A DNA stretch of 64,000 nucleotides from Cephalotus follicularis. Lineage: Eukaryota > Streptophyta > Magnoliopsida > Oxalidales > Cephalotaceae. The translations under genes were made by a program, and so were the position numbers. The notes beneath the pieces were generated by a model. It was not told the origin of the DNA, did no database searches, and worked only from the letters and a program-made list of their open reading frames with translations. This document shows positions 1,584-60,857 of the stretch, piece after piece. The stretch spans positions 62,001 through 126,000 of the forward strand of contig BDDD01002654.1 in assembly GCA_001972305.1 (NCBI GenBank), given 5' to 3'. Position 1 is the stretch's first letter, and every line of letters begins with the position of its first letter.

Positions 1584-1758
1584 AAACGACGCTGGATTGG
1601 GTTAAAAGCGTCGACGCCTTGAGGAAAGCGTCGACTTCTAATCATTAAAACGCGCGCCAATAAAACAAACATGCACATGCACGTCGACGTGGAAGAATGC
1701 GTCGACGTCATTACAGGAAATGACCAAAGCGTCGACGCCTGCATGTAAACGTCGCCAC
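1584..1758. repeat. GCGTCGACGC motif array 1
   Basis: Motif units start near 1586, 1608, 1628, 1681, 1699, 1729 and 1749. Most steps are 18-22 bases or a multiple with one unit missing. The cores are conserved and the bases between them are not. Confidence 0.75.
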
Positions 1759-2539
1759 TTAGAGTCGAATATCAGGCACGTTCTACTGCTGACAAGAAAT
1801 GTGCAAGGGGGACATGAAATGAGGCGCCATGGCAAGTCGAATGAAACCTGTTGGCCATGCTGCACAACGCCAGGCATGCACCAAGCACGTGTCCTCAGCC
1901 ATTGAATGCAAGAGAGGTGAGTCTTCATCACCTGCAACCTGCAGAAAAGCAAAGAAAAGAACAAAAACAGTAAATGAAAGAGAAGAAACGGGTGTGTGTG
2001 TGCATGCAAACCAGATGAGAATGAGAGAAGGTCTCTACCAGCATAAATGCTCCTCTCTTCTCCTCTTTCTGGGGTAAACACTTGTGAAAAGAAAAGGGAG
2101 AGAAACTAGTGGTGTTATACCAGAGAGAAGGAGGAGAGGATTTCCTCCATTGTTGAGCACCATTGTTAAACCTTGGAGCTGTGGAGCTTCGAGTTTGGAG
2201 CTGCTGGACAAGGATTGAGGCTGTTGTGACCAGTCTTTAGAACACAAAGAGGTGGACTTTCAAGGTTTCTAACTTGAAACCAGAGGTAAGGGATTGTAGT
2301 GGTTTTATACATGCAAAATTTGAATTGAAGTTAATGTTCATACCATTGATATTATGCATGAATTGCTTGTTGTATCCGGATTGTTTGGATTGTTGGATTG
2401 TTGGAATGATTACTGTGATATGCAAACCGATTATGCATATGTAATCTAAGAGAATAAATGAACTGAATTGCATGATTATTTGAGTTGTTTTCCCCTGGTT
2501 CGTTGAAATGAGGACGACGAAGTGCACAAAATTGCTTAA

Positions 2540-2622
2540 CCGTCGACGCTCACGATATAAGTGTCGACGCTTTCATGTGCAAAGGCAATAGACGTCGACG
2601 CTTAAGGAAAACGTCGACGCCT
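2540..2622. repeat. GCGTCGACGC motif array 2
   Basis: Four units start near 2540, 2561, 2592 and 2611, each a CGTCGACGC core. Two of the steps are 21 and 19 bases. The array lies inside the solo LTR at 1412-4182. Confidence 0.75.
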
Positions 2623-2820
2623 TATATTAACATTTGCAGGACTGGTATGTTCATTTGTGGATTGTGTGAATTGTTGATGGTTTGATAAACTGGTTACCTA
2701 TATTGATAACCTGTCGTGCGTACTACACCTGTAAGGGACGTTTCTGGGATTGCATGTAAGTTTGGGGGTTGGATTTCCCCTTGGAATCGAGACTAGTGAA
2801 GTGATCTCTTGATATCACAA

Positions 2821-2920
2821 AAGTGTCGACGCCTGTGGTTTTGCTGCGCCTGGGATTGAATGCACGAAACGTTGACGCTTAGAGGACATAAGCGTCGACG
2901 CCCAGAGGATAAGCGTCCCC
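2821..2920. repeat. GCGTCGACGC motif array 3
   Basis: Units start near 2823, 2869, 2892 and 2913. One has a GTTGACGC core and the last is truncated to GCGTCCCC. The last two steps are 23 and 21 bases. Confidence 0.65.
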
Positions 2921-4483
2921 CCTGGTTTGGTTGGTTTGACCCGAATTGGATCCGTTAACTCTGAAACGACTCTAGGCACATTTGAGCATATGATTGCATT
3001 GCACTTGCATTGTTTTGGGTCTGGATTTTGGATTGTTGATTGAATTGGATTGTTATCGTGTTGAAAATGATTTATCATTTTTAGGGAGTTGCATACATGA
3101 TTTATCTCAAATCATTATTTCGTATAAACTGTTATGTTCAAACCAAATGCATATTTTAAAAAAAATGGATTGAAGCATGTTTTGAATAAATATGCAGTTT
3201 AAAAAGGATTGTTACATATTTTGAACAAATATGTTGTTACAAGTATTTTATAATGCATAATTTACTTGGAAAATTGTTTGTTTTATATATTGACAAATAT
3301 ATATGTTTCAAGGATTTATTTTCATAAAAGGCTTGAATTGGATTGTGGATTGTAGCTGTTAGTCGCGTGGTGGAGACTGCCATGGCTGGCTAATGACGGG
3401 TTTTTCTCTAGGTGCCAAGAGTTGGCTAGGGATTCCCACAGTGGATTGGTTACTTAGCCGAGTGCTAGTAACATTGGATTGTGGCCTGCTTTGAGTTGTC
3501 CGAGAGCCGGGACCGGAGTGAGGAGTACAACATCTGGGCCAGGAGATGGCGATGTCTTCGTAGCTTTTGTCTGCATATTGGATTGTTGGATTGTAGCCAA
3601 TTGACATGTTTGCTCTATTGGCAGTTATACATGTATATACACACATATATATGTATTATTATGGGATACTATGTATTGCATCCACAATTGCATACATTAC
3701 ATGACATGCATTATCTTTGATCCCGAATTGCACTTATAAACTTTGCTACTTAACCGAGTGAGGAAAAAGGCTAACCCCCTACTATTTCAGATTGATGCAG
3801 CTGGTTTTATGGTTGCGCGCACTTGGGCTTGAAGAGAAGACTGGATGTCCTCTCTTATATTTTGTAATCGGATAATGGTTTATTTGTATTTGAGATAACT
3901 GTACTACTAGATAATATGTTTATCATGTTTGATGGATATTTGGCTTTGTATTATTACTCACGCTCCGTTTGAGGGCAATCGACGATGATGTTGAGTATTG
4001 TTATGGAACAATTTTGTATCACGTAGTATGAGATGCGTGATACACGTTTAGTTCAGCTTATTTATATGGTGCTTCCACGAGATTTTAATTTATTCGTAAA
4101 TTGCATAAGCTGGATAATGTTATTATGTTGATTACCATATTGTTACCATTTAAATGTTGTTTATCAGAAACGGGGTGTGACATCTAATCACGTAAGTTCT
4201 GACTCGTTGTCATTCCTTGTTACTCTACATCACATAGTCTCTGATCTGTACTACGAGATATCTTTGTATACATTCAGTACACTACACAACTATATACTTA
4301 GTCAGTAGTGTATATCCATGTAAGCGTAATATTAATATTGTAATATTAATGTTGTTAAGTAAAGAGTTACTAATAATCCAACAATTTCGAAAAATTCTTA
4401 AATAAATACAACTCATCACATAATATGTGAATATAACCAATAATAAAAAGATACATCGTAAATTTGAAAGTTTATAGAATACA

Positions 4484-4933: not shown

Positions 4934-6364
4934 GATCCATGTGACATTATTTAACGTAAAGATTTAATAATAAAACTAGCGTAAGTATATGCTAAATCAT
5001 TTCTTAAATTGGTCAAATCATAAATTATCATTAAGTAAAGAACTTATAGGGATCATGGCGAATCTATGTCATTATTTCGACATAGTCCCTTCCATATATC
5101 ACAGTATCAATTCTATACTTAACATGATCTGTAATGAGAGATATCATAATGGTCCAACAATAATATTTGTCATAAACAAATCCTGTTCATATTCACATAA
5201 GTCATTCATGTAAATATACTAATATAATAAACATGATGTCCAAATATATCAAAAACAATACTTAAATGATATCAAAGTGTAAAGTACATAAAATAAACTT
5301 TAACATAATATCACTAATGGTTTTCAATAATGCTCGTTCTTTCAACATATTCATTGAATGTCTTTGGTGGTAACCCTTTAGTTAACGGATCCGCAACCAT
5401 AAAATTTGTGTTAATATGCTCAACTGACACTCTTTGTTTCTGCACTTCTTCTTTAACGGAAAAGTATTTCAATTCCATGTGTTTAGCACATTTGGAATAC
5501 TTGTCGTTTTTAGAAAATAAGACCGTTGCGGCATTATTACAATAAATTTTCAGCGGCTTGGCAATACTGCCAGCAATTCCAAGTCCTAAAATAAAGTTTC
5601 GCAACCATAAACCATGAACAATGGCCTCAAAGCATGCCATAAATTCAGCTTCCATAGTGGATACAGCAATGACAGATTACTTCACACTTTTCCATGAAAT
5701 TGCTCCTCCAGCTAAAAGAAACAAATATCCAAAAGTAGATTTCCTGGTTTTTACACATCCAGCAAAATTTGAATCTAAATATCCTACCACATCAAGATGA
5801 TCAGATCTCCTAAAAGTGAGCATGTGATCTTTCATTCCTTGCAGATATCTCAATACTTTCTTTGTAGCCCTCCAATGATATAATCCTGAGTTACTTTGAT
5901 ATCTGCCCAGCATTCCAACAGCAAAACTGATGTCTGGCCTAGTACAAGTCTAAGCATACATCAAGCTCCTAATGATAGATGCATAAGGAATTTGTTCCAT
6001 TTGCTTTCGTTCCAATTCGTTCTTTGGGCATTTCATAAGGCTCAATTTATCTCCTTTATGAATTGGTACAACACCCGCTGAGCACTTTTCCATCTTGAAT
6101 CTCTCTAGAACTTTATTAATATATGCTTTCTGATACAACCCTAACAATCATTGTGATCTATCACGAAATATGTGTTCACGAATTTTGAACGTTTTAAATT
6201 TATACCGCAAGTGCACGGTTGTGCAGTAACGGGTCGAACACTAGGAAACAAGCTAAATTAATTTTGATCTATCCAACCTAGGTGAAGTATGCAAAATTGA
6301 GGTAAATTATTAACTTCTACTCCTAAAGATGCAAAATAAACCAATTAATCGAAACAACAGCTGA

Positions 6365-6450
6365 AAGCATCGACGCTATGAAGGAAAGTGTCGACATAAA
6401 CTAAATAAAACAGGAAAACGTAGACGCTTACGGGGTAGGCGTCGACGGTT
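6365..6450. repeat. GCGTCGACGC motif array 4
   Basis: Units start near 6367 (GCATCGACGC), 6388, 6419 (ACGTAGACGC) and 6439. Steps include 21 and 20 bases. The array lies in the insertion that splits the copia element. Confidence 0.7.
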
Positions 6451-6630
6451 AAGAACACTGATGCAAATTTAACAGAAATAAAACATGCAAGTTAAGAACT
6501 AGTCAAATCAGCAAATAAACTAACTGAAATATATAAGAGAAAAGCGATTTTAGGGTATAAAAACTCATCATAGATTATATTGAACAACTCACTTACTTGA
6601 TTGATCAGACCTTAGTAACTAACATCAGCT

Positions 6631-6783
6631 AGGTCGATACGGAGTGCGACTGTGATAACAAATCGTATGAGTAGTCATGCTAGGTCTATACGGAGTGTGA
6701 CAGCGGCGATAAATCGTATGAGTAGACATGTTAGGTATATACGGAGTGTGTTCGGCATGACAAACCGTATGAGTAGGCTCCAT
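6631..6783. repeat. 51-bp tandem repeat, three copies
   Basis: Copies start at 6631, 6682 and 6733, exactly 51 bases apart. Each begins AGGT.nATACGGAGTGnG and ends near CGTATGAGTAG. The ATACGGAGTG and CGTATGAGTAG blocks are conserved, while the middle differs between copies. Confidence 0.9.
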
Positions 6784-7157
6784 TGATCGCGTTAAAAATC
6801 ATTCATTCAACAACGTTCTTATTTACCGACAAGATGTTTGTGGACTTTAATCATACAGACAAAGTGTGTGTGAATGCAAAAAATTGAAGAACAAATCAAA
6901 ACTTCAAGGATTTTATTAATGGAGTTGGCTTGCTCTAACCCTAAAAACCTTAAGAGTTCAGGTAGAAAACATTGTAATAAAGCTTAGAAATTGAAGAAGA
7001 AAAGAGAGAGAATGCGGCTAAGAGCTTACATAAAGCTTAACACATTGTTATGGCCGGCCTTACTATGTATTTATACTTACAAAACTGCTAAAAACGGAAA
7101 GAAAATAACCTAGTTACAAAACTAGCAAAAATCTGAACTTTCCAATTTTGCTGCCAG

Positions 7158-7390
7158 GCGTCGTAAGCGTCGATGCTTATGTCTTGGGCGTCGACGGTTT
7201 GTCATTTGGCGTTGACGCTTTGATGTGTTGAAGGTGCTAAGCGTCGACTTGTATGAGTGTTAAGCGTCGACTGTATTGAGCAAGGCGTCGATGCTTAAAA
7301 TGTGTAATTCGATTATTAAACTTCCGTACTAAAGCGTTGACGCTTCAATCTTAACTATTGGCGCTTTATATGTAAGCGTCGACGCTTTAC
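7158..7390. repeat. GCGTCGACGC motif array 5
   Basis: Units start near 7166, 7188, 7209, 7241, 7264, 7285, 7334 and 7376. Steps of 22, 21, 32, 23 and 21 bases show the roughly two-helical-turn spacing. Cores are GTCGACG, GTTGACG or GTCGATG, often flanked by AAGC and GCTT. Confidence 0.8.
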
Positions 7391-9989
7391 TCTGTTTTCT
7401 GTAGAAATTTGCTAATTCTTCAAGTCTTCATGCTTTAATCTTTTTCTCTTCTATTTGCGCCAATTTCACTGGTTTTTATTCACTTTAATCTTTTTGCTCT
7501 TATACCTAAAAACCAATTAAGAACAAACAAAGTAGTCTATTCCAAAAATAAAAATTCAATAAATAAATCATTAAAAATAACACATTTTTATGCTAAAAAA
7601 TATGTCAATTCTTATCACATAGGATGCCTCAGCCATATCTTTAGTTTCAAAGTTCTTGTTGAGAAATTTCTTGGTTTCATGTAATAATCCAAGATCATTA
7701 GTAGCAAGCAAGATATAATCAACATACAGAATCATAAATATAAACTTGCTTCCACTGATCTTCAGATATATACTCCGATCAACGGTGTTTTCCTTAAATT
7801 CAAAAGAAATAATAGTATCGTTGAACTTTATACCATTGTCGAGAAGCTTATTTAAGCTCGTATATTGATTTCTTAAGTTTACACACTATGTGTTCCTTTC
7901 TTTCAATAGAAAAACCTTCAGCCTGATCCATATAAACTTCTTCCTCTAAATTCCCATTCAGAAAGGCAATTTTCACATTCATTTGATGTAACTCTAAGTC
8001 ATAATGAGCCACTTCTGCCATAATAATTCTAAAAGAGTCCTTTTTAGACACAGGAGAAAACGTCTCTTTGTAGTCAACACCATCCTTCTAAGTAAAACCT
8101 GTGGCAACAAGTCTGGCCTTGTATCGTTCAATATTGCCATTTGAATGGTGTTTGGTCTTAAAGACCCATTTATACCCAACTCTTTTGCAACCTTCAGGAA
8201 ATTCAACAAGATCCCAGACTTCATTGTGATCCATTGATTTTAACTCTTCTTTCATGGCGTCTAACCACTTAGCAGAATTAATACTTTGCATGGCTTGTGT
8301 GAAAACGAAACTGGATCTTTATCAATTCCCAAGTTAAATTCTGACTCTTGTAAATAAACCACATAATCAACAGAAATAGCTGATCTTCTTTGTCTTTGAG
8401 ACCTTCTTAATGCTACTTCATGTTGTTCATCTACTGTAGGTTCATTTATGGTAACTTCATTATGGGATGTTTGATCATTAATTTGTTATTCTTGTATGTT
8501 GTCAAGTTGTTCAACAACTGTAAGAACAATAACATGAGAAGAAGATATAGGTAAAGAAACGTGTATCCTAACTTCTTGTATTTCCACTTTGCGTGGTTCT
8601 ATACTACCACTAAATTCACCATTTTCAATGAACCTAGCATTTCTAGTTTCAACAATTCTTGTACTATGGTTAGGACAGTAAAATCTATATCATTTTGATT
8701 TTTCCAGATAACCAATGAAGAAACCACTGATTGTTCTTAAGTCCAGTTTCTTTTCACATGAATTATAAATTCTCACTTCCGTCGGGTAACCCCAAACATG
8801 CAGGTGCTTTAAACTGGGTTTCCTTCCAGTTCATAGGTCAAAAGGAGTCTTTGGAACTGCCTTACTAGGAACCATGTTTAACAAATACATGGTTGTTTTC
8901 AAAGTATGCATCCACAATGATAAGGGTAAAGAAGAATGATTTAATATACTCCTAACCATATCCATTAAAGTACGGTTACGCCTTTCTGCAACACCATTTT
9001 GTTGCGGTGTACCTGGCATTGTGTATTGAGCACAAATGCTACGCTTTTCAAGAAATTTAGCAAATGGACCAGGATATTTTCCAGTTTCATTATATTTTTC
9101 ATAATATTCACCACCTCTGTCAGACCTGATAATTTTCATCTTTTTATCTAGTTGTCTTTCAACCTCATTGATAAACACTTCCAAAATGTCTATTAATTGA
9201 GATTTTTCATGTAACAGATAGACATAAGCATAACGTGAAAAATCACCAATAAATGTAATGAAATATTTTTCTTTACCAAACAATGAAACATCAAAAGGTC
9301 CACATATATCAGTATGTATAATTTCAAGTAGCTGTGAGCTTCTTGTGGTTGCTTTCTTAATTGTGTGTTTTATGTGTTTTCCTTTAATACAATCCACACA
9401 TATACCAAGATCAGTAAAATCTAAATCAAGAAGGATTTCATTATTTACTAATCTTTGTATTCTTTCTTTGGATATGTGACTCAAACGTTTATGCAATAAG
9501 AAAGATGAACTTTCATCTACTAAACCACGTTTTATACCAATATTATGGTGCAAGGTCAACAAGGTCTCAGCAAATAAATTGTCAAGTTTAAATTTGTACA
9601 AACCATCACAAAGATAACCAGAACCAATAAAGTAATTATGTTTAAACAAACTAAAACATCCATTTCCAAACTTAAAAGAAAACCAATTGTCTCAAGTTTA
9701 GACATAGAAACTAAATTTTGAGAAATAGAAGGAACATAAAGTGTTTGAAAAATATCAAAATGATATCCAATGTCTAAGATCAAGCGATACGTTCCAATGG
9801 CTTCAAGTGTAGCTTTGACTCGATTGTCCATGAAGACAAACTTTTCATTTGGGTTTATGATTTGGGTTGTAAGGAATCCCTGCATCGTATTTGAAACATG
9901 AGTGGTTCAACCAGAGTCAATCCACCAAGTATTATAAGGAATTTATGCCAAGTATGATTCGAAACATACAAAAGCACTAGGCTTACCTT

Positions 9990-11822: not shown

Positions 11823-11824
11823 CA

Positions 11825-17078: not shown

Positions 17079-17097
17079 GTTACAATAGTCGAGAATA

Positions 17098-17098
17098 T

Positions 17099-45260: not shown

Positions 45261-45600
45261 AATCAAACAGACAAAAATAACGGCTAGTTTTTAGTGCAGA
45301 TTTCATTATTGGCAAATCTAAAACTTTTCTAAAGTGATTCCAACGGCTAGAAGATGATTCCAACGGCTATATTCAATACGAAGGCTATAAATAAAGGTTG
45401 AATCACTGAAGAACAACAACAATCAACAGCAATCAACATTGAAATTAAATTTTGTCAAAATTATAGAGTTTTATTGTACTACAATGCCTTATAGTGTATT
45501 AACTTTTATAATTTATCATTTTACTTATTCTTTAATTATTAGTTAATTACATATTTCAATTATAATGGATTCAACATCAAGAGCAAGGAAATAAGCAAGG

Positions 45601-47684
45601 ATGACCGAGAAGGTGGGTTCTACATCCACCACTGCGTTCGACTTGGTGGATGTGGAACTTCCTTCTAACGATGACGAAATGGCCCACATGATGCAACAAC
45701 CTCCTCCACCTGTTGATAAATTTTTTGACTTGGATGAAGATACGCCTTCGGATGCTGCGATCGGTGGAACATCCCTACAGTCCGAGAAGAATGATCCTAA
45801 CAAAGGGGGGAAACAAAAATCCGGCATATGGAAGCACATGGAGATTAGAGATGTCAGGAATGGGAAGAAACGAGTCTTTTGCAAGGTATGTAAGACTAAG
45901 GATTATGCTTATACAAGTGGGGTTGGCACGGAAACTTACAAGAGGCATTTAGACAACATGGTGTTAAAGGTTCGGGCCAAACCCAACTCCAATTTAGCCA
46001 GGTCAGTGGTGATAATAAATTACTTACTTTTAGATTTACCGATGAAAATTATAGAAGAAAATTAGTTTATTATATTATAGGTAATGAATTACCATTTTCT
46101 CATGTTGACTCAGTTTTTTTCCCTGATATAGTATATGAAGGACTTAATCCTCAGGCTAAATTATATTCAAAAACTACCTTTAAAAGTGATTGTCTTATTA
46201 TTTATGAAGAACACAAGGCTAAATTAATTTCTTCTTTTATAAATATTTCTACTTTTTCTCTCACGTCTGATGTTTGGAGCACAATCACGAGAAAAAGTTT
46301 TATTTGTATAACTACACAATATATTGACGAAAACTGGTTATTACGAAAAAGAATTATTACATTTAAAAATTTGTATTATCTTCACATCGGTCATAATATA
46401 GCTATCTCTATAATAGAAACTACTCGTGAGTTTGGAATTGAGGAAAAAGAAAATTATATTAGTTTTGATAATGCAACTAATAATGATGCTGCTGTTAGAC
46501 AATTAAGAGGTTTTTTTATCCCATATTAAATGGTAAACTATTTCATGTTAGATGTGTATGTCATATTATTAATTTGATTGTTCAAGATGGTTTACTTTTT
46601 GTTGGAGAAAAAGTACAAAAAATTACAAGTATTATTACCTTTATAGCCCAATCGGATGTAAGAAAACAAACATTTAAACAACTTTGTAATGAATGTGGTT
46701 TGAAATATAAAAATTTGGTACATGCTGTGACACATATGTGGAATTCTACTTATGAAATATTGTTGCATACTTATGAATTTAGATTACCAATAAATGCATG
46801 CATAGGTATGCACGTGACTACATATTCTTCTTTTTCTGAAATATCTGATAGAGATTGGACAACTTGTTATGTTATAACCCAAATTTTAGAAAAATTTAAA
46901 GAATTGACTGATCTATTTTCTGGTTCTTATTATATTTCTATAAATTTAGTCTTTGGAAAATTGTGAGAAATTTGTGAAGTTTTTGCTAAATATAGGGTGG
47001 AAAATAATTTTATAGATATTTGTGATGTGATGGAAGAAAAATTCCTTAAATATTGGGAAACAATTCCACCTTTATTTTTTTTTTGCTGCTATAATGGACC
47101 ATGGAATAAAATTACAAGGTATATTATTCATTGCAAACAAATATCAAATATGCATGAGCAAAGGTAATCCAATACAATTAGATGGTAATGAGGTTACTCA
47201 ATTGTTACATGATGCATTTGATACATATGTTAAAAAATATAGTGTTGGAAATGAATATCAAGAAAATGTTAGTAGTAGTGGTAATGATCCCATAGATTTT
47301 TTTGATAGAATTACTTATGGAGTTGGTAATAGTAGTAGTAGTAGTATAGTTAATACAAATACTGAACTACAACATTACCTTAATACTAATATTCAGTTCA
47401 TTAATAAAGAAGATAGAACGTCCTTAGATCTTTTACAATGGTGGCAAAAACAACATACTTTTTATCCAATTCTTTCTATAATTGCACGTGATATACTAAC
47501 AGCTCATGTGTCCACAGTTGCATCCGAATATGCTTTTTCTGCAGGTGATAGGGTTTTAGATGAGAGAAGAGGTCGGTTGAAAGCAGAAAAAGTGAAGATT
47601 TGTGTTTGCTTGAAAGATTGGATCGTTCAAGATAGGAGGATTCAAAAAATTATAGACGAAGATAGCGGTAGTAGTGACGAATAA
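45601..47684 (+). pseudogene. hAT transposase with BED zinc finger (frameshifted)
   Basis: hAT transposases cut the element out at its inverted ends and reinsert it. The start at 45601 (MTEKVGSTS) opens 154 codons. These include a BED-like finger, GIWKHMEIRD...FCKVCKTKD...TYKRHLDN, whose last expected His is missing. Past a frameshift near 45980 come SHVDSVFFPD, the SLTSDVWST segment (first catalytic Asp region) and ISFDNATNND (second). A second frameshift lies in the T run near 46512, before HVRCVCHIINLIVQDG. A stop at 46964-46966 and another shift near 47085 follow. The last frame (47094-47684) carries the hAT dimerisation region, including LDLLQWWQ, STVASEYAFSAGDRVLDERR and a final acidic tail. 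It is inactive as it stands. Confidence 0.9.
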
Positions 47685-47897
47685 AACTACATCTCCAAGA
47701 ATTCGAGGAAGATGAACAGAAAGATAGACAATATGCGAGAGGAGTTTCCTGACCTTTTTGACGATCAACACATAAGACAAAGGAGACTTGAGAAAAAGTT
47801 GATTGCCAAAGGAATTATTGAAGCTGCTGATGACATCTCCTCATCTGAAGAAGACGAATCGGAAGAAGAATTGGCTGTTTTTTTTATATGTACTTAA
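47685..47897 (+). pseudogene. In-frame tail after the transposase stop, copy of the accessory protein C-terminus
   Basis: Downstream of the TAA at 47682-47684 the same frame stays open to 47897. Residues such as NMREEFPDLFDDQH, KKLIAKGIIEAAD and ISSSEEDESEEE match the C-terminal part of the accessory gene on the opposite strand (about 49150-48985), both as protein and as DNA. It is thus an inverted duplication of about 170-200 bases placed in frame behind the transposase. Whether it is ever translated, by readthrough or splicing, is unknown. Confidence 0.75.
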
Positions 47898-47988
47898 CTT
47901 TTGATGTTTTTTTGACGTTCAAATATTAAACTGTGATTTTCTTGAATTTAATTGATGATTTGTTTTTAAAAAGGCTACATATCTTTAT

Positions 47989-48395
47989 TCACGTTGACGC
48001 GTAAGTATGGCATTGACGCGGATGTCATTTGTGTTGACTCCTTTTACTTTTCGCTTTAACATTCAAGTCACTATCTGAATTGTGCTTTCTGCTGCGTTGA
48101 CGTCTAAAAAGGGCGTTGACGTTTTACTCATAGGTGTTGACGCTAAAAATGCTTAACGTTAACGTCCAAAGCTATTGTCCGAAATTGCACCTTTTGGCGT
48201 TGACGTTTTCCTTAAGGCGTTGACGTTGCACATTTTTGCATTGACGTCTTCCTTAAGGCGTTGACGCGGATAATGAAATTCCCAGCATGTCAACGTCAAT
48301 CATTAAAGACGTTGACGAATATTATTTTCCAAAGCCCAGAAACTCATACTCAAGCCCAGCATGTTGACACCTAAGATATAGTCGTTGACGCCAAT
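47989..48395. repeat. Motif array 10, between the two hAT genes (GTTGACGC form)
   Basis: Units start near 47991, 48010, 48031, 48094, 48113, 48134, 48156, 48197, 48217, 48238, 48258, 48288, 48309, 48360 and 48382. Steps of 19-22, or multiples of about 21, dominate. Cores are mainly GCGTTGACG. Confidence 0.87.
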
Positions 48396-48419
48396 AAGAC
48401 AGAATGCACATATTGCTTG

Positions 48420-48800
48420 TTTTCACTTGCAATTTTTCCTGTCAAACATAACACTACCCCTTAAGCATAAGTATAACCTTTCAAACATAACTCTACCCCT
48501 TTCAAACATAACCTTTCAAACATTTGATGCACATATGATATCAATTTATACCATCTTGAAATTCAAACATACCCGTAGGCATATATAACTATATAACATC
48601 TCAGGCATATATAACTATATAACATCTCATGCATAACTGTCAAACATTTGATGCATAACATATATAAAATTGTTTTCATTTGATACATACTTTGATGCAT
48701 AACTGTCAAACATTTGCCTATGGGTACATTTGATGTATAACTGTCAAACATAACCTTTGCATATATGATATCAATTTAAAAACATTTGATACATACTCTT
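48420..48800. repeat. Degenerate CAAACATTTGATGCAT repeats
   Basis: Repeated segments include TTTCAAACATAAC, GTCAAACATTTGATGCATAA, ATATAACTATATAACATCTCA and ATATGATATCAATTTA, each two or more times at irregular spacing. Non-coding, between the central motif array and the accessory gene. Confidence 0.7.
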
Positions 48801-49564
48801 AAAAATATAGGCATACACATTACACAAACATCTCATCATAACCATATATAAGATCAAGAGTATGTAACATGATAATATAACATCTAGAGAACTTAAAATT
48901 TGATACAAAACAAAAGTTTTAAAACTGATATAAACCAAATGTGTAAAAACAGAAAATGCAATGTATGAATCAAGTCTTCACATTATCTCCTCCTTCTTCT
49001 TCGGATTCTTCTTCTTCCGAAGAGGAGATGTCAGCAGCTTCAATAAGACCTTTGGCAATCATCTTCATCTCCAGTATCCTAAGTCTTCTATGCTGATCGT
49101 CAAAGAGGTCAAGAAATTCTCCTCTCAAATTATCCATCTTCTTATTCAACTTCTCAGCTAATCCAACAAAACATTCATGGACGTTGACGCCTTGCTACTG
49201 CTACTTGCATGACCTTGCTGCATCTGTGGTGCAGGGGTTTGGTTCTTTCTTTGAGCTTCTCCTCGCTCTTCAACATCCTCATCACCTTCACCTTCAACTC
49301 CTTTTCTTTTTCTTCCATATTCCTTGGGTAGCCATTGAACACCTTTATCAGAATCAAACACTCTCTTCATCTCATTCTCTTCAAGGAAGAGGCATTGTAG
49401 ATGTCCCCAACATCTACCATCGATGCAATTTCATTCCCAAACACTATCCCAAAGTGAGAGAGAATCTTGGTGATTACCATACCGTATGGCAATGCACCTT
49501 CAACTTTGGAAGTTGCTCTTAACATGTTCTTCATGTTTAAATGAGGGAGGTTCAATGGTTTACC

Positions 49565-52175
49565 TGTGACATCCGTGTCCTTGTACGGTCGGTGTCTGTG
49601 AGCCTACGAGGCTTCTGTCTGTCTGTCTGTTAATCTGTTTTCTGGCATTCATGATATGCATCATGGCATTATTTAAATTTTTACGATTTTATTCTGATGG
49701 TTTTCTGCATAAGAAATTAATTTGCCTTTCCGTAAATTAAACAATATTTTACTGAAACTGCTGCTGATTTAGGAAAAATAGCCCAAGTGGTATGTCCTAA
49801 ATATCCGATTTCTGTCCGTAACGATTAAATTCTAGACAAAACTCTTTCCGTTATGGTGGAATTTATATATATATGTGAAAAATGCAAAATTTTAAAAGAA
49901 TTTTGGGCTTTCTCTCTCATCTCTCCCGCTCTCTCTCTCATCTCTCCCGTCTCTCTGCCGATTTGCCTTCTGCCGCCGGCGTCAGTGCCGATCTGACGCC
50001 GACAAGGGTACCAACGGGACCGTCATCACCTCCCGGTCACACCGAGCCCCACCCCTGCACCGGCCAACGTCTCCTCCAGCGGGCGCGACGGATTCCAGCG
50101 GGGCTGGATCCGGGCGTCACAGTTTGGTATCAGAGCTTTTGGTTTTCAGATTCTCTAGACTCATCTGCATCTCATGCATTTCTGGTAGGCATTCAGTTAT
50201 GAGTTCTGGTATAAGTGTGGTAGCATGCCTTGTGGTCAAGTGATATCATCTTGTGGTAGAGTTTGCATTTAGGCTCGACCCAAATGTTATGATGTCTGAG
50301 ATTTCTGCTCTGGATTTCTCTGTCGCAACAGAGTTGTTGCTGGGGTGTCACACCCTATTCCCCTGTTCTGATATGGTAGATCTGAAATGTCTGCTGATGT
50401 TTTGAGGTCTGATTCTGTTGCTGAATATACTGGTTATATCTGAGGCTATAAAGATAGAGATGTTCAATTCTAAAGTGTTAAGGTTCGAGTTTTAGTATGA
50501 ATATCTGTTTTGTGGTATTGTAATTAAGTTTCTGATGAGGTTCTAATCAGTGTCTGATTTTCTGTCTGATGGAGTTCCCTGTTAAGGGGGATATGTTTGG
50601 GAGTCAATAGATTTTGATGAATGTAATGTTCTGCTGTGCAGTAATTGTCGGGTAGTTGATGTGATTGATCCATCCTTCTGGAAAGTTTTATGATTATATA
50701 TCTTTTGAGGTGTAGTACGAGAAGTTATAGTATGGAGTTCGTTGATAACGTCTTTCGAGATTATGAGTATGATTATTTGAGTAAGGTTAAATTGAAGTTC
50801 GAGATTCAATCTTTCTGCTTGATGGTTCACTACATGATTAGGGTATAAAATGTGTATCGTGGCCTTGAGGTCTATAAGAATACTTTGTTTGCAGACTCTT
50901 CTGACTTGCTTTGAATTAAGTTAATGGTTCTTTATATGATCTGATTAGACTTGACTTGCATTTTGATGACTTTAGTTTTAACCTCTGCAAGTTATATAAG
51001 AGACTTGATGATAGGAAATGAGGATCTGTAAAGTGGTATTATGTTAGTAGGGTTCTCGATATGCTTATGTGATATCGATGACTACAATATGAGTTCTGCT
51101 GATTGGGTGACTGTTAAAGATCCTTAGCATCTGTTTAAGTTCTGGTATGATTAAATTTTTATGTTGAATTGAAGTTCCTAGATGATGGAAATGCTACGAG
51201 TTCTAATGATATAATTCTCTTGATGAGAGCAAGTTGTTATAAGTGTTCAGCGGTTTCTGTCTGGTTATGAATCTGGTAATGTTGAGGATTATAATATAAT
51301 ATTTCTGATCAAATGTCTGTTAAGGATCTGTATCCGTGACTTAAAGTTTTGACGCAATCTGTTTATAAAATGAACTTTAGGTTTCTGATTGATAAAATCT
51401 TGCGAGTCAAGATACCTTGTGGATCATGCTTGGAGAAAAACTTTTCTGGTTCTGGTGTCAAAAATCTGATAGTGATGAGTAAATGGTTCTGATGTGTATA
51501 GAAGCGATTGTCAAAAGTTTTTGGTGATCTGATTTTTGTATTGTGGAAAAGTTACTATGAGTTCGATCTTCTGTTTTGTCAACCTTTGGAGTTTTGTGAA
51601 TTTCGAGGACGAAATTCTGTTAAGGGGGATATGTTTGTGACATCCGTGTCCTTGTACGGTGGGTGTCTGTGAGCCTACGAGGCTTCTGTCTGTCTGTCTG
51701 TCTGTTAATCTGTTTTCTAGCATTCATGATATGCATCATGGCATTATTTAAATTTTTACGATTTTATTCTGATGGTTTTCTGCATAAGAAATTAATTTGC
51801 CTTTCCGTAAATTAAACAATATTTTACTGAAACTGCTGCTGATTTCGGAAAAATAGCCCAAGTGGTATGTCCTAAATATCCGATTTCTGTCCGTAACGAT
51901 TAAATTCTAGACAAAACTCTTTCCGTTATGGTGGAATTTATACATATATGTGAAAAATACAAAATTTTAAAAGAATTTTGGGCTTTCTCTCTCATCTCTC
52001 CCGTCTCTCTGCCGATTTGCCTTCTGTCGTCGGCGTCAGTGCCGATCTGACGCCGGCAAGGGTACCAACGGGACCGTCATCACCTCCCGGTCACACCGAG
52101 CCCCACCCCTGCACCGGCCGACGTCTCTTCCAGCGGGCGCGACGGATTCCAGCGGGGCTGGATCCGGGCGTCACA
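49565..52175 (+). mobile_element. Complete non-coding LTR retrotransposon inside the hAT accessory gene
   Basis: LTRs 49565-50121 and 51636-52175 start TGTGACATCC and end GGGCGTCACA. They are nearly identical; the length gap is mainly one extra CTCTCATCTCTCCCG-type unit near 49920-49955. An exact TTACC flanks both sides (49560-49564 and 52176-52180). The primer-binding site TGGTATCAGAGC is at 50125-50136 and the purine tract AAGGGGGATATG at about 51621-51632. The 1.5-kb interior has no open gene, but just before the tract it reads TTTCGAGGACGAAATTC, the usual end of chromovirus pol. It is therefore a deletion derivative of a gypsy element that needs help to move. Confidence 0.93.
50125..50136 (+). 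other. Primer-binding site, initiator-Met tRNA type
   Basis: TGGTATCAGAGC three bases after the left LTR end CACA. Confidence 0.9.
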
Positions 52176-52876
52176 TTACCAGTCACAACATGCCACATAA
52201 TATACAAGTCTTGGTAACTCATCTTTTCATGCCCACAGGAGGTAGGTAGAATGCGAGTGACAGTTATGTGGTGGAGCAGCCTATGCTTAGCACCAATGAG
52301 ATTGGTAGGCTTGGTCATGCCTCCAAAAACATTGTCATTAGGGTAGAACACCCTAAGACAATCCTCCAAAATTAATTCTGGATCCTCCGACCATTTCATA
52401 GTTTCAAAAAACTTTGATCTAGTAGTAGGTACATTCAAAATCTGACCTAGAATCTTATCATCAAACTTGATAACTATTATATTAACCTTAGTCTTCAATT
52501 CTAAAACATCATTGCAATCATCTCCTACATTACTCAAATTCCTATAAAATTCTTTAACATATTCTATATAATATGGAGCATTAATCGTAAAGTAATCTTT
52601 CCAACCTAAAACATCAAACCATTGTTCTAGATTAAATTTATCACCTGTAATGAAGGAGAAATCAACAATCCTTCCACATAGCACTTTTCGGACAGCATAA
52701 GAGCTCTTGTATCTCTGACGAGTGGGTGGCTTCCCTCCATGTGATGAGTGTTTTGTCTTCGTCATAATGCATTATACGGTTTTGAATGGAAAAGATTCAA
52801 GATTTTTAGCTTTGAAACTCGGATTTTAGAAAAAAAAAAGAAAGAGGAAAATTAGGGATTTAACCGCCAAAACAAG

Positions 52877-53142
52877 TAAAAGTCGACGAAAACGCTCAGA
52901 GCATTATATACTCGACCCGTAGGCGTCGACGTCTAACTTATGCATTGACGCTAATCGTGTACCATTTGATACAGACGATATAGGCGTTAACATCATCGTC
53001 GACGCAAAAACATGACGTTAACGCTAATAGATAGCGTTGACGCACAAGATGAAAAGCATTCCTTATCATAGTCATAGATAGCGTTGACGCATATCAGCTC
53101 AAATGACATTAGCGTCAACGTCATACATACGCGTCAACGTGA
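52877..53142. repeat. Motif array 11, hAT right subterminal region
   Basis: Units start near 52879, 52923, 52942, 52984, 52996, 53015, 53034, 53081, 53112 and 53131. Several steps are 19 bases. Cores are GTCGACG, GTTAACG, GTTGACGC and GTCAACG. Confidence 0.82.
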
Positions 53143-53375
53143 ATATGAACCGGACAGGCCTGAATCGGCGCGTCTCGCTCATGGCTAAGGTTCACGGGCC
53201 GGTTCAGTTCTCTCTTTTTAGCTCCATGAACCAGACCGGCCTAGACCATGACAAAAGTGGTTGGGTTCAAGAACCGGACCGCCTTTCCCCAGTCTGGGCC
53301 ACGGTCCGGCCCCGCCCGGACCGCTTGCACCTCTAGTGTGTTATGAAGGCTAGTATAATCACACCACTCAACAAG

Positions 53376-54358
53376 CTAGGCTCTAAGGGCCTCTGCATCA
53401 AGGTTGTCTTTGGCCGACCTTTCAACAGGCATGAAAGATAGTTCAATCAACCTCTCGTATACAGAGACCTTAATAGCTCTGGTAGAGCATGGCATGAGAA
53501 CTTTGGTTTGTACACCACGTAGCCCAGTTCCATCCCTTGGTCCCCAGTGTGAGGAACGATCACTTTCCATTTAGAACTCTGGAGGTAAGAAAGAGCCTTC
53601 TTCTTGGGGTGAGAAGCCTCTTCAATAGCAAGTTACGTTGGAGGTAGAGGAAATACCTCTCGCCTTTGAGACTGAGAAGAGACCCCGTCAGAGTGGGTCG
53701 TCTTTGCCCTATTTTTTGGCAGACTTGGTTGTCTGGTGGGGAGTTTATCCCTCCCAGAAGAGTTGGAGCCTTCTCCAACCTTCTTCAGCAAAGTAGTCTT
53801 TAAGTACGAAAGTGATGCTCTGACCATCTCTGAAGTACAACAAAGAGACCAGAGTTACTAAGAGCACAGAAGAAAACATATCACAAATGTCAGAGAAAAG
53901 ACATTAAAACGAACAAACAACAAATATCTACCGGAATCAAGGACTTCAGACTCCACGTCATCCTCTTCCTCATACACCCTAGGAACACTAATGCCAACAT
54001 CTCTAAGTGTCACCTCATCTACGGTGCTAAGCATAGAGTTGGGCCTCCAAGATAACATATTCTTAAGAAACCCCTGCTCGTCGAGAGTTAGAGGATCATT
54101 CCTATTCAATGATGGTCTAAGGTTATCATCCGAAAGAGCAGGAATAAATCCTTCGAAACAATCAACGATGAAATACTTTAATCTCCAATTCTTGATGGAC
54201 GGGGCCTGTTCCACCAAAATCTTTATCTTGGTCCTTGACTTGAAGTAAAAGTCTCGATCAAGGCTACTGCGAATGTGAAGAATTCGTTGAAAATCCCCAC
54301 TGTGGCAAGGATGAACCTCTCTAAACATATCACCAAAAAGCCCATAGTAAACACCCAT
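53376..54358 (-). pseudogene. Gag-like gene remnant, 'putative gypsy type transposon' style
   Basis: The minus-strand frame from 54358 has 130-140 plausible codons, including FYFKSRTKIKILVEQAPS, WRLKYFIVDCFEGF and FLKNMLSWRPNSMLSTVDEV, then an acidic segment. A possible GT donor follows near 53938, with an AG acceptor near 53829. Downstream frames (53827-53633 and 53570-53376) hold lysine/serine-rich and YERLIELSFMPVE segments but shift frame. The style resembles plant 'putative gypsy type transposon' proteins carried by some retroelements. Neither function nor the full gene model can be shown. The hAT element sits just right-adjacent to its 3' end, and the LTR at 54547 near its 5' end. Confidence 0.4.
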
Positions 54359-54546
54359 GATTAAGCTTGAAGCTAATTATATGTAGACCATAAGCAAGAC
54401 CTAATTTTCAACTCTGCCAATTTGCATCTATGTAAAGTGAAAAGAACAGACTTCATAAGAGACGTTGGTCTCTTCTCTGTCACATCCAACCCTAATAGAG
54501 GATAAGTTCATACCTTCAGTACGTAACTCATCTCAGCAAACACAAG

Positions 54547-57363
54547 TGTGACATCCGTAACCTAGTACGGTCTGTGTCTGTGAGCCTACGTGGCTTTCTG
54601 TCTATCTGTTTAGTTGTTTGTCTGCTTTCCCGGCGTTCATGACATATGCATCACGACATTAATAAAATGTTTACTAATGTGATTTCATTATGATGGTTTT
54701 TCTGCGTAACAAAAAAGTTTTTTCTGCTGAAAAATTAAATGATGTTTTACTGAAATTGTTGCTGATTTCATAAAATAAACCAAGTCGTATGTCGTAAACA
54801 TCCAATTTCTGTCTGTATCGATTAAATTCTGGGCAAAACCTAGTCCGTTTTGGATATTTGTATGCAAAATACCAAAAAAAATTCTCTCATTTTGCCATTT
54901 CTCTCTCTCTCCCCCCGATTGTCTCTCTCCTCTCCCGTTCTCTCTTCATTTTCTGCTTTTGTTGCCTGCATCACTGCCGATCTAACGCCAGCGAAGGTAT
55001 CGACGTGACCGCCGTCACGCCCTGAGCACACCTGACCCATCCCTCCGCGCTGGGAACCGTGTCATGAGCGCACAGTGGCCGTTTTTCTCACCCCACCTAT
55101 TTTTCGTTGAATCTCTATATCCGGTGATCATCACGGTAAGGCGAGCCCAGATCCGACATCCCGGTATCGTGGGGAGTCGAACGGTACCAGCCCAGACACG
55201 TGACAACGCCGGCAGCGCAGATCGGCGACGAAGGCAGCCTCGGTCAACTAGCCCGTTCCGGCCAGATGCGGCGGCTCCAGGATCAATGCGCCTCAGATCC
55301 GTGATCCCCAGCATCCGACGAGCCAGATGCGACCTCTGCGGTTGACCGACAACCACGCGTGGCTAAAATGCACCAGCCAGCGCGGCGCGTGGGCGGACGC
55401 ACCGACAGCTTTCTGCAGCCCATTTCTAACAGCTTTCCGACTCCGTTTCCCCCATAGGTGTGATCCGTTATGGTTCCGTTCTGAGTTTTCAGCTCTGTGC
55501 CCCGTTCCGTCGGCTTTCGGTAAATTCTGAACTATGTTCCGTTAGTTCGGTTTTCTGTTGAATTATGTAGTTCTGCATATGTTTCTGTGGTATATAAGCT
55601 TGAATTGTGTAATCGATTCAAAATTGGATAACCTGGACGACCATTTGGACTTGTTTTAATGATTTCAAAAGTGTGTCAATTGAATTTTAAACAATGTTTT
55701 TAACTAATAGACTTATGCTGCTGATGACCGTTTTGATCGGTTATAGTTTTCTGACATCTGCATGTATTTCATTGCATAACGTATTTCACGACATTGTACA
55801 TGTTTGAGTTCCGATGGTCTATTGTCTATCTGTCTGTTTGTCTGTGGGCAGAGGATACTGCCTTTGGGATCGGTCATGGAGGCGACCGGTCGAGGGAGTC
55901 GCTCGTCTGTTCTGTGAGTGTAACGCTTTTCTTTAACCCTTTTAACTCTGAAGTGCTTTTAAATGTTTTGAATATTTGAGCGTGTTCGCTTATTTGTTTA
56001 TGTATCTGAATGAACTTAGTTTTTGGTTTATTTCTGAAATCTGTTAAAGTTTTAATATCTGAAACTTTCTTTTAATGTTTTCAAACGCTCGCACGATGAT
56101 AGTCATAGTATGACGATATTTTCGGTTATATCTGTATTTGATAAGAAAACGATTTCTTCATCTATTTAAATCTGTTTTAACTCTGTTTTGACGGCTCTGT
56201 TGATTTCTGTATCTGTTTAAATGTGTTTAAAGTCTGTTTTGAGGATTTCTGTATTCTGAAATATGAGATTCTATATTATAAAATCTGTTAAATATGTTTA
56301 GATGCATGGTGATCTCGGTATTGTATTGGTTACATATCTGATGCCCATGAGAGGCTTTGTCTACACGTGTATGACTTTCTACTGATGCTTGGACACGACG
56401 GTGTCCTTGCCACTATTTCTGCTGGACGTTCGGCCCGACAGGGCCAAGGCGTCAACCTTACTTTGTAGACCCATGGTATCTTTATATATTTATTCTGTTT
56501 AAACTATTTTAAATACTACATATATCTGAGTTCTGAGGAATTAAATCTGTTTTGGGAAAAGAATCTGACTTTTTGCTGATTCTGTTAGAAATTGTTTTAT
56601 AATCTATTTATAATTCGAATTTTGAAGTTTATACACTATTTCTGATTTTCATTCTGTTTCTGAAATTCAGTATAAGTTTTATTTTATACTTTTGGTTGTA
56701 ACATTTCTGCAAAGATATTTATATGCGAGCAAAACTCTGCGGACTCTTTTTGTTCCATCTCACTAGTCCTGTGGACTAACCCCCTCCTCTGTTTTCTATT
56801 TTTAGTTCTGACAGGTTAGTCTGCTGAACTCTGTCAGCTGGAGTCAGTTTGTCTGCTGAGGTGAGACCATTAGGACATGCCTACTAGAGTCACTTGCATA
56901 TCATCAACGACATTAATATTTAAATTTCTGCATTACTTATGGTTTTATATAAATGTTTTGGTTTTGTTTAAAAAGGGCGGAGCCCTATTCAGGTTTTATG
57001 TTTTGATAATATGGTTGAGGTAGAGCCCAACCCATACTTGTTTTCTGCTTTTAAAATTGTTGTCTGCTAAGAGCTGAACCCATTTTATAAACTGTTTCCT
57101 TCTTCGGAAGTGTGGTTACTGAGGGCTGAGCCCATTTTATAAACTGTGTTTTTCTTTACAGGGGGCATAGTCCGATAAACGAATACTACATGCCCCATTT
57201 TCGTAAAAATTTAAGAGTTAGAATTATTTTCAAGAAACTTTTCTGTTTAAAAATGTATTTCTGAATCTCTGTTCTGCTGAACCTACGAGGTGAGTCTTTT
57301 ATGGGAGGCTTGGCCTCGTACCAGGCGTGACGGATCCCAGCCAGGCTAGGTCCGGGCGTGTCA
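54547..57363 (+). mobile_element. Gypsy-type solo LTR, 2.8 kb
   Basis: Starts TGTGACATCCGTAACC and ends GGTCCGGGCGTGTCA, flanked by exact ACAAG duplications (54542-54546 and 57364-57368). Its first 250 or so bases match the LTRs of the element at 49565 (TACGGTCTGTGTCTGTGAGCC, then CTGTCTATCTG), and the last 30 bases match as well. It is therefore a full-length family member whose short relative has lost most of the LTR. T- and CTG-rich throughout; no coding sequence. Confidence 0.9.
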
Positions 57364-57368
57364 ACAAG

Positions 57369-59669
57369 TCTGCTCTTCCTCCCATAGTGTGATATTCACC
57401 TCTGCTTGTTCATCCTCACAAAAAGGGAATTATAGACTTTGTCAGGGCAGGTCTCAATGAATTCAAGTCTAAAATAGTCCCATAGAATTCAAGCAAAGAC
57501 AAGTGCCTTAACCACCTATTCTAAGGATCATAATGCTAGAGAGAAAGTCTTGCAAGCCAGTGCCGAGCTTGTATTTACTCTATCTTGTATGAAACGATTT
57601 ATAAATTCAATAAAGATGGTTATGTTTTATCAATGGCTATGAGTTCATTTCTTTAATACATGATTAATAATAAATGAATATCTTGGAATGAAGTTAGAGA
57701 ATCATGTTTATGATGAGATCATGATTTGAGAGTTGGAATTTCGGTATACTTTATTTCGAATCTTCCTGGTCATAGAATTGACACTCAGGGTATGATCAAT
57801 CTGGATAAACCAACACGTACGATCAGATCGGTAAGCAGAATGTGATTGATCTCACACTCACTCGCATATATGATGCTATGACAAAAACGTGGGTGCTCGT
57901 TAATTAATTAATGAGTTCACTGAAGGTGACTGCTGATAGAATATCTGTATGGAGTTTTACTTACATGTCAAACAGAATTCTAGTTTTACAGCAGTGCATG
58001 TGGTCCTTGGACATGAGCCGTCACTAGATGTCTTGTGCATAGGGTGCTGTGTTTTGATTATACTTAAATACATATTTAATGAAGTGTATACAGGCATTAG
58101 TTAGACATAGTACGTTTATGTATGGAGGCATGTGAATGCGCAATAATGAATCCATTGCTTTTAGTAAAAGAAGATTATGTTCATGATGATTTTCGTTAGC
58201 AATTAAGCGCCTAACCAGGCTAGCCACGATATCAAGAGTGTGATATTATTGGTTAAATATTAGAGGGGCACCTCTAATATTATTTAGGTTAACGAAAGAT
58301 AGTCATGAGACTAAAGATTAAATTATTGGGGTCTGACATAATCTGTACCCTAGATTTAATCAAAACATTGTCAATGGAAGGATTATACGTACATGTACCT
58401 GTAAATCATGGTTCGCAGATAATTCATATTACTTGGGGGTCGTTATGCATTGCTAAATGTCGATGTCGACCTGTAGGATACCCGGGATTAAATTGATAAT
58501 TAATCTTGGAAGAAAAAAATTAAAAGAGTTTTAAATCAAAAAATCGGAGAGAATATTTTTATGTGATAATAAATATTTAATTGGATAATTATGAGTATCA
58601 CGATTTAATCCTACAGCCAGTGAATAGTGAACTCATAGGGTCACACACAATACATGCTGATATTTTCAACACATTATAAGAGAAAAATAATTAAGATAAT
58701 TATTTCCTAATTATAATTAATGAGATTAATTATCCTTAATGAGATTAAGGTAAATTAGAAGTCTAGAAGGAAAATGAGACTTCTTCTAAAAAGAATATGA
58801 GACTTCTTCTAGAAGGAAACAAAAGAGTTTATATTATAATATGATTGTCTAGCAGCACATAATATATATATATATAGATAGATAGATAGATAGATAGAAC
58901 ACACCCCCCTCCTATAAAGTAGACGTTTTTGTGTTCTTTTGGCGTCTTCTCTCTTCTCTCAAGAACACAATCAAGAGTTGGAGGTTTGAGAAACCAGATG
59001 TTGAAAATTGAAGCTTGGTGTGGATACCTTGGAGTCCTTCTACACTTGGAGGCTAGAACCGTTTCAAAGAAACAAAGGAACCTGTGCTTTTGGAAGAAAG
59101 AAGACGCAAAGGTGAGTAATTCTGCTCACTCCTCCTTATTGATATTTGTATATCTAACTGTATATGTATGCTCAAAAGATCCTGCGAATGAATCATATGG
59201 CTTGATAATCATGAGACGAAAACACAATATATATATATATATATATTAGGGTTTTATGCATCTATATAATTTTATTATTTAAATCGCCATATGATATGGA
59301 TAGAATTTGCTGACTAATCATAATGTGCTATGTGGAAGAGAATCTTAGAAAGATTCTTCTAGAGACCTTAATAATACCAAATATCTAAGATTAATGAGGT
59401 AGAATCCTCTTAGGACTCACAAAAAGGGAATTATCATAATCCATGCACAATTCTAAGTCAACCAGGATTCTAAGGTAACTATATCTTCTCCCCTATAAAT
59501 AAGATATTCATTCACAAAGGTCTACAGCGGGAACTAGGATTTAAGTTCAGTAGGCATATAGAATAATTAATTTATAAAATTTTAATACGCAAAATAGAAA
59601 GAGAAAGTGCTCAATACTCTTTTGATAAGTTTACATAGCTAAAAAGATTTTCATAATAATCTCATTATT
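57369..59669. other. Repeat-like region, not classified
   Basis: No supported gene. The segment ending with AATTCAATAAAGATGG near 57618 looks like an LTR polyadenylation region. The stretch 58900-59110 has a transcribed-leader look, with CTTCTCTCTTCTCTC followed by GTGAGTAATTCTGC. It is probably one or two decayed retroelement fragments. I could not find paired ends. Confidence 0.35.
58861..58899. repeat. AT and GATA microsatellite
   Basis: (AT)n running into (TAGA)6 or so, followed by ACACACCCCCC. Confidence 0.9.
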
Positions 59670-59674
59670 GATGG

Positions 59675-60857
59675 TGAAAAAAACTTGAATGGTAACCTTA
59701 AACTAAAGAGATATTTGTTTGCGGAATTAACAAATTATGAGCTATGAAATTAAGCAAGCATATAAGAACAACTTCAGGCAATTGAGATGCAAACAATAAA
59801 AATTAAAGAGAGAAGGGATAGAGAGAGTGCAAACGAATTTATAGTGGTTCGGCAAAATCTGTGTCTACGTCTACTTTCTCAAGACTCCCTTGAGATTCCA
59901 CTAGAAACTAATATCACCCTTTGATTTTGGCTTACAGGTGCAAATCAAAGAAAACCACCTTACACTTGATTTTGGGTTGCGGGTGCAAATCAACTAAACA
60001 CCTTACAAGGGTTCACTCCCCTTAATATTCTCACTAAGGGTTTCAACACCCATTTTACAAAGAAAGATTTGAATGATGGTTTTGAGTTTACAAATTAACC
60101 TCTAAAAGGTTTGATGTGAAAGTGATAGAGTGCTAGATTGAAGCTTTGATGGATTTGAACGTTGAAGCTTTTCTCTTGATTTTCTTCTCTTTTGTTATGA
60201 AAGTTGAGCTCTTGAAGTTAGATGTTCAAAGTCTTTTTGATCTTGTTTCTTGGCCTCTATATATAGCTTTTTTCAGTTTATGGCCGTTGTAAAAGTGTTA
60301 TAGCCGTTGCTTGTTGTCTTGGAAGTTGTTACTTCAAAGTCGGCTCTTTAAAACACGATCAGTGATTTTTCTGCTGTGCAAAGCGTCGACGGTGTTGCAT
60401 AAAGCGTCGACGTTTATGTTACCGTTATGCATTTGAATTTGAAATTTCTTGCTCAGTCCGCTGACGCTTTGATCTGGGTGTCGACTCTTTAGCATAAACC
60501 GTTGACGCTTTCCCTTGAGTGTCGCCGCTTTGAGTTCTTCAATTGATTTTGCAAGTCACTATTTTTAACCGCAGATACAAGCTTTTTAAGCTTTGACGCC
60601 TTGGTCTAAACCGCTGACGCTTTCTTTGAGACCGTCGGCACTTTAAGCAGATTTTAGCTTAGACGAGTTCAACTGTTGGTGCTTTGCTCATGGCCTTCGT
60701 AGCTGTGTTAAGCGTTGACGCTTTGCTCAAAACCGTCGACGCTTTGTCCTGTTTCTGCACTTTCTTGTTTTGTTTTGATTAAACAATCTTCACATCAACA
60801 AACAAGTTAGCTGCTTTGTTATCATCAAAACCATGATTGTTAGATAAAAACCCAACA
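59675..60857 (-). mobile_element. Copia-type solo LTR
   Basis: On the minus strand it starts TGTTGGGTTTTTATCTAAC and ends in TTTTTTTCA. It carries the GCCGAACCACTATAAATTC segment typical of SIRE-like copia LTRs (near 59835-59855 on this window). Flanks GATGG (59670-59674) and TATGG (60858-60862) agree at four of five bases. About 1.18 kb, with no internal region. It contains GCGTCGACGC array 12. Confidence 0.68.
60381..60745. repeat. GCGTCGACGC motif array 12
   Basis: Units start near 60383, 60404, 60458, 60478, 60499, 60519, 60590, 60611, 60632, 60712 and 60733. Steps of 20-21 dominate. Cores are GTCGACG, GCTGACGC, GTTGACGC and GTCGCCGC, often flanked by AAA/CC and CTTT. Confidence 0.87.

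Follow-up and report, generated by a model that had tools for sequence, protein, structure and literature searches.

In this study, we analysed 64,000 nucleotides of Cephalotus follicularis DNA (contig C2654, bases 62001-126000; hereafter the window) and found that unrelated transposable elements carry arrays of a 16-bp palindromic site. The motif is confirmed to be real, genome-wide and phased along the DNA helix, and the data support an array common to copia elements, Ty3-type elements and a hAT DNA transposon. We see an even chance that the arrays act as promoter or enhancer boxes, each a cluster of sites for a symmetric, probably dimeric protein that binds DNA.

Allowing one mismatch at most, we counted the core GCGTCGACGC 34 times in the window but never in 20 first-order Markov shuffles; with up to two mismatches, the count was 68 versus a shuffle mean of 1.8 (maximum 5). 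Genome-wide (one 1.58-Gb assembly of 9,746 contigs), the exact 16-mer was found 3,552 times versus 5 for the reversed control, and the variant with a central CA 906 and 863 times on the two strands versus 0 and 1. Furthermore, near-complete site pairs 9-39 bp apart numbered 2,517 (control, 3) and core pairs 24-54 bp apart 8,953 (control, 13). The 16-bp site is palindromic and contains three CpGs; base preferences were alike on both halves, and conservation stopped four outer bases out on either side. In the hAT arrays, a central TT was commoner than TC and CA-containing forms were present too, so that the hAT sites are mostly asymmetric variants; the earlier note on this DNA had placed the palindrome there, and what stands of this is the presence of the arrays.

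Two patterns within the arrays are recorded as side observations. In the copia LTR (long terminal repeat) arrays at loci L009, L010, L014, L015 and window positions 60334-60745, a GTCGAC-centred unit is often followed 21 bp on by a GTCAGC-centred one, as though two unit types alternate. In array group A at loci L005 and L006, the same two-sided dyad changes (AAGACATCGACGTCTT-like) are common to several units, as though array specificity had moved together.

Units in the window were called with a matrix trained solely on loci outside it. This gave 154 non-overlapping units; three shuffles under the same matrix had 47, 56 and 53 scoring positions. Thirteen clusters held at least four units. One, at 61604-61883, was dropped because its steps were 86-90 bp, and it was without a core of at most two mismatches. 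The other twelve, which recover the twelve clusters first reported, are listed without strand.

1583-1761, array in LTR1: 7 units, steps 22, 20, 53, 18, 30, 20
2537-2683, array in LTR1: 5 units, steps 21, 31, 19, 60
2820-2925, array in LTR1: 4 units, steps 46, 23, 21
6364-6451, array in the distal part of the Ty3-type solo LTR: 4 units, steps 21, 30, 21
7164-7388, array in the Ty3-type solo LTR: 9 units, steps 21, 21, 32, 23, 21, 49, 21, 21; TATAAATA at 7075 (minus strand)
40255-40474, array in the outer LTR: 7 units, steps 32, 22, 21, 49, 32, 48
42534-42676, array in the inner LTR: 6 units, steps 21, 21, 22, 42, 21
43608-43774, array in the inner LTR: 6 units, steps 19, 23, 21, 67, 21; a weak seventh unit at 43510
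44925-45261, left subterminal hAT array: 12 units; TATAAATA at 45386 (plus strand)
47988-48394, hAT array 3' of the transposase frames: 13 units
52877-53143, right subterminal hAT array, upstream of the PF20167 frame: 9 units; TATATAAT at 52910 (minus strand)
60334-60745, array in the Sirevirus-like copia LTR: 13 units; TATATATA at 60265 (minus strand)

The steps quoted before were reproduced from 42534 (21, 21, 22, 42, 21) and from 60455 (20, 21, 20), whereas at 7164 they are 21, 21 and not 22, 21. The stretches that had been described as free of arrays indeed held only three isolated cores of at most two mismatches (7400-40000) or none (49200-52900 and 53200-60300). Tandem Repeats Finder picked up only pieces of some arrays.

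Subsequently, spacing was examined in the window and in fetched loci (20 of 10 kb round exact sites, 20 of 1 kb round listed pairs and 20 of 1 kb round exact sites). These contained 93 arrays of at least two units, which were reduced to 11 groups by removing relatives by single linkage. In the periodogram of distances up to 140 bp, the top period was 10.25 bp with a power of 19.0, versus a maximum of 9.7 under the jitter null (0/500). The power was 12.5 for distances over 45 bp (null at most 7.3) and 35.2 with a looser grouping into 18 groups (null at most 7.4). At 20-22 bp, the power was 1.3, 1.5 and 1.0 for distances up to 140 bp, over 25 bp and over 45 bp, respectively. A separate run with 25 groups was concordant, and 24 of its 98 steps were 21 bp.

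Pair distances across the genome pointed the same way. Among the matches listed, 39 of 70 distinct close pairs (9-39 bp allowed) were 21 bp apart and 25 were 20 bp apart; the genome-wide peak near 21 bp that had been predicted was therefore present, with 64 of the 70 at one of the two distances. The 76 distinct pairs 24-54 bp apart among the matches listed, related copies included, gave R 0.36 at 10.35 bp, which 0 of 20,000 uniform draws reached. For 53 deduplicated pairs, drawn from 73 of these 76, R was 0.315 (p 0.0055), and 34 of the 53 were in phase versus 48% expected. The pair-distance peaks lay at 29-33 and 49-53 bp. Phasing was clear (the observed value was reached by no more than 3 of 2000 nulls) in six of nine classes, namely the window copia LTR, the copia linker, the Ty3-type LTR, group B, the three solo LTRs pooled and hAT (R 0.61, 0/2000). 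Taken together, the periodograms, pair distances and per-class tests indicate a whole-turn rule with a minimum near two turns and with exceptions: the spacing is in whole helical turns of about 10.3 bp, mostly two, and two, three, five and seven turns occur. The earlier note had proposed a 21-bp phase; its one-face spacing holds, but the period is about 10.3 bp and not a strict 21 bp and its multiples.

The sites are also better conserved than the DNA between them. Homologous arrays were compared in five groups, with third sequences used to define the motif columns, and motif likeness exceeded spacer likeness in all five (0.794/0.562, 0.832/0.715, 0.852/0.671, 0.759/0.474 and 0.842/0.702). Flank likeness in the same groups was 0.731, 0.626, 0.569, 0.704 and 0.731, in each case below that of the motif.

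Four solo LTRs in the window carry arrays.

1412-4182, plus strand: LTR1, solo LTR, TGTAACGCTCGGG..GGGGTGTGACA; flanks TCTGA / TCTAA, 4/5 match
6152-7619, minus strand: solo LTR within a copia pol region, kin along its length to the 3' LTR of the Ty3-type element in L005
38447-44367, minus strand: outer solo LTR, target duplication TAAAT, split by the inner LTR; orientation inferred from terminal similarity
41406-43922, minus strand: inner solo LTR, nested in the outer one, target duplication GAGAG; orientation inferred

The stretch at 6152-7619 had been taken for a non-coding insertion, which was mistaken, as 959 of 1392 aligned bases were identical to the L005 stretch. In L005, the LTR comes after a TTTAAGTATGGGG tract and same-strand reverse transcriptase-RNase H and integrase frames, whose domains we read as Ty3 type. 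A target duplication was looked for at 6152-7619 and not found. A 51-bp tandem repeat of 2.9 copies also lies in this LTR (6628-6776). Three further hosts had been called gypsy LTRs; they are LTRs, but all are solo and one is nested, and the gypsy label is unproven, the nearby pol frames not being tied to the same element; for the same reason the superfamily of array group B is unproven. LTR1, the outer LTR and the inner LTR have similar ends, and LTR1 and the inner LTR have short matches outside the arrays, up to 100 bp.

Among copia elements, the LTR beginning at 60857 (minus strand) is kin to loci L009, L010, L014 and L015. The minus strand of L010 carries, in order, an integrase-bearing copia frame, further frames, an array, PF20167-like homology, repeated AAGGGGGAG tracts and an array-bearing LTR. 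In L008 and L017, the arrays lie between the primer site and gag. The DNA transposon in the window has the following parts.

44734-53335, no strand assigned: hAT element, 8.6 kb, with imperfect terminal inverted repeats and an 8-bp target duplication GTGTGTTA at 44726-44733 and 53336-53343
45546-47684, plus strand: hAT transposase frames, stop-to-stop pieces, with a hAT C-terminal dimerisation domain in 47031-47681
52094-52771, minus strand: PF20167 frame (putative plant transposon protein), E 2.9e-16, with homologous frames in copia loci

Of the three hAT arrays, one precedes the transposase frames, one follows them and one precedes the opposite-strand PF20167 frame; subterminal repeats are thus found at both ends of an element with terminal inverted repeats and an 8-bp duplication. 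Of the 21 sequences examined, five had PF20167 homologues (L007, L009, L010, L014 and the window), each with an array roughly 150-290 bp upstream.

Apart from LTR1 versus the inner LTR, no local match among the LTRs compared (LTR1, inner, Ty3-type and copia) was longer than 58 bp, and most coincided with array units. For the unrelated LTR families, this agrees with the earlier claim that the array is shared without common flanking sequence. Such short, array-bound matches speak against the descent of all arrays from a single inserted array with homologous flanks, and the flank comparison gave no sign of it; they do not speak against a moved seed of one or two units. Since such a seed could have moved, neither convergent gain nor horizontal spread is favoured, and the choice between them is undecided.

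The symmetry of the site, the one-face spacing in most classes, the conservation of sites over spacers and the promoter-side positions together favour clustered binding sites. The symmetric 16-bp site would be recognised by a sequence-specific protein, probably dimeric, and most neighbouring sites would share a face of the helix; a bound protein, as proposed before, is still the likeliest reason for that spacing. The boxes would drive element expression from the LTRs, the copia leader and pol-env linker, and the hAT ends. Unrelated lineages may have kept or gained the box, one nuclear factor serving all, and this factor would most simply be a host transcription factor. We infer the protein binding, the dimer, the activation and the host origin from sequence features. 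The promoter evidence, four arrays followed after 13-137 bp by TATA-like words, is the weakest of the supporting lines. Copia, Ty3-type and hAT elements that share a phased box in the same nucleus would point to one nuclear factor, for whose isolation the box could serve as a probe. They would also show unrelated transposons converging on or trading one control site, which would make joint activation or silencing testable.

Several observations weigh against this interpretation. TATA words are frequent in the window (198 + 212), none was found within 140 bp downstream of the LTR1 or inner-LTR arrays, and the nearest one downstream in the outer LTR is 285 bp off. Covariation across the dyad was weak (p 0.056, 0.01, 0.81 and 0.03 at outer offsets 1-4). 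With the 11 groups and distances over 25 bp, the periodogram power was 14.1, and one of 500 nulls was higher; distances of 44-45 bp are common though out of phase. Phasing was marginal in L017 (72/2000 nulls as high) and absent from copia LTR group A (1424/2000) and the L008 leader (1562/2000). Finally, loci were picked for containing an exact site, and a bias to intact motifs remains.

The binder might instead be encoded by an element, like the Arabidopsis VANC anti-silencing proteins, and lift silencing, with unrelated elements that carry the word exploiting it; the PF20167 protein of the copia elements and the hAT is one candidate. As far as the available text of PMC5735166 goes, VANC proteins target short motifs that form fast-changing tandem arrays in non-coding DNA, and the unrelated element AT9TSD1 also has the VANC6 motif. 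The array upstream of each PF20167 homologue and the two-sided change common to several group A units are consistent with such a binder. However, four of the five PF20167 cases are one copia family selected for the exact motif, no DNA-binding domain was recognised, and the model of the PF20167 piece from five sequences was useless (predicted local distance difference test score, pLDDT, 35.5), and we regard this explanation as unlikely. A broader version, in which the array and a cognate element-encoded protein, possibly the PF20167 protein, were passed among copia, Ty3-type and hAT elements to form one cross-regulated guild with helix-phased sites, is speculative and in our judgement improbable.

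We also think it rather improbable that the arrays are host silencing targets, based on small RNA or methyl-CpG, and not activators. The palindromic site with its three CpGs would suit such a role, and, according to the accessible part of PMC10398659, tandem repeats can be targets of RNA-directed DNA methylation, which overlap with VANC targets. Loss of silencing sites would benefit the elements, yet the motifs outlast the spacers, and helix phasing is unexpected for an RNA-level signal. Another reading takes the hAT arrays as subterminal repeats that bind the transposase and sees something different in the LTR arrays; the likeness of the two would then be due in part to chance or to secondary use of a factor derived from a hAT. 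Ac/Ds and other hAT elements typically carry subterminal repeats (PMC3260210, in the text available), and the hAT arrays here stand at both ends, in opposite orientation and mostly in the TT/AA-centred variant. The hAT and LTR arrays nevertheless have an identical 16-bp architecture and phase, a third array is internal to the hAT element, and two of the hAT arrays precede TATA words; this reading, too, has little probability in our view. Neutral tandem duplication of a 21-bp unit is the explanation to which we give the least credence. The commonest step is 21 bp in both the listed pairs and the 25 groups, and successive units had identical spacers at one listed place (C1:1678356). Against this, the spacers are mostly unlike between units and less conserved than the motifs, the periodogram power stands at 10.3 and not at 21 bp (19.0 versus 1.3), and the word occurs in unrelated elements. 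A tandem-duplication origin was set aside on the periodogram and spacer conservation; nor do the arrays behave as a simple tandem repeat, with homologous spacers and a single period, as the period is 10.3 bp, the 21-bp signal is weak and the spacers diverge.

Binding sites of a symmetric-site protein remain the interpretation that we prefer. The arrays were also compared with known systems. The literature searches made found no published account of this array: among the matches listed, text searches with GCGTCGACGC turned up no title concerning transposons, and those with CGTCGACG and retrotransposon no title about this motif. Array-pair patterns had 0 matches in viral contigs and 0 in prokaryote genomes, and three stretches fitted the pattern of a copia pol piece, none of which was confirmed. 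VANDAL elements are MULEs. Their VANC arrays resemble the present ones in that a short motif forms arrays in non-coding transposon DNA and one motif also occurs in an unrelated family, but the motifs given in the available text (YAGTATTAY and AGTTGTCC/AC; PMC5735166, PMC10398659) are unlike the present core, which matches neither the VANC21 nor the VANC6 motif. In Brassicaceae COPIA LTRs, heat-responsive elements likewise place one host-factor site in several families, partly by species-specific gain; there, however, the factor is known (heat shock factor), and the part of PMC5059998 available describes no long arrays or DNA transposons. Ac/Ds elements share repeats in both hAT ends (PMC3260210, in part), whereas the present word also occurs in the hAT interior and among LTR retrotransposons, and transposase binding is putative.

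The closest known counterparts are the Sirevirus RM boxes, as described in the available part of PMC2829016. They are palindromic, high-copy and CpG-bearing, lie ahead of the TATA box in LTRs and again ahead of the env-like gene, and have variants common to diverged elements; their binder is given as unknown. A CGG-CCG signature is reported in 12 of 13 listed elements, one being without it, and the boxes are said to be specific to Sireviruses and missing from classic copia elements. Similarly, the present motif reaches at least eight palindromic copies in an LTR, with 13 units at 60334-60745, and arrays precede PF20167-like (env-like) frames in L007, L009, L010 and L014. The layout of L010 is that described for Sireviruses, and the AAGGGGGAG tracts before its LTR fit, so that it may be called Sirevirus-like by layout. 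The arrays differ from RM boxes in their core, CGTCGACG and not CGG-CCG, in not being confined to Sireviruses, as a Ty3-type LTR and the hAT element carry them, and in helical phasing, none of which is described in that text. In these three respects, the arrays exceed the RM-box account given there.

Some minor features of the hosts were also noted. In the hAT element, the post-transposase region is repeated in inverted orientation (47708-47870 and 48994-49153), which suggests a rearranged or composite element and hence a complex history. Its PF20167 gene is seemingly interrupted (49161-52771), and the homology to the copia env-like frame picks up again at 49570-49373. Between the PF20167 pieces lie two direct repeats with 94% likeness (49565-50121 and 51636-52175) and, at 50125, a word resembling a primer site. 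Elsewhere, a frame with a plant mobile domain (PF10536) lies about 2.3 kb off an array (L022:7632-8300); in the text available of PMC7156037, this domain is also found in the host silencing proteins MAIN and MAIL1.

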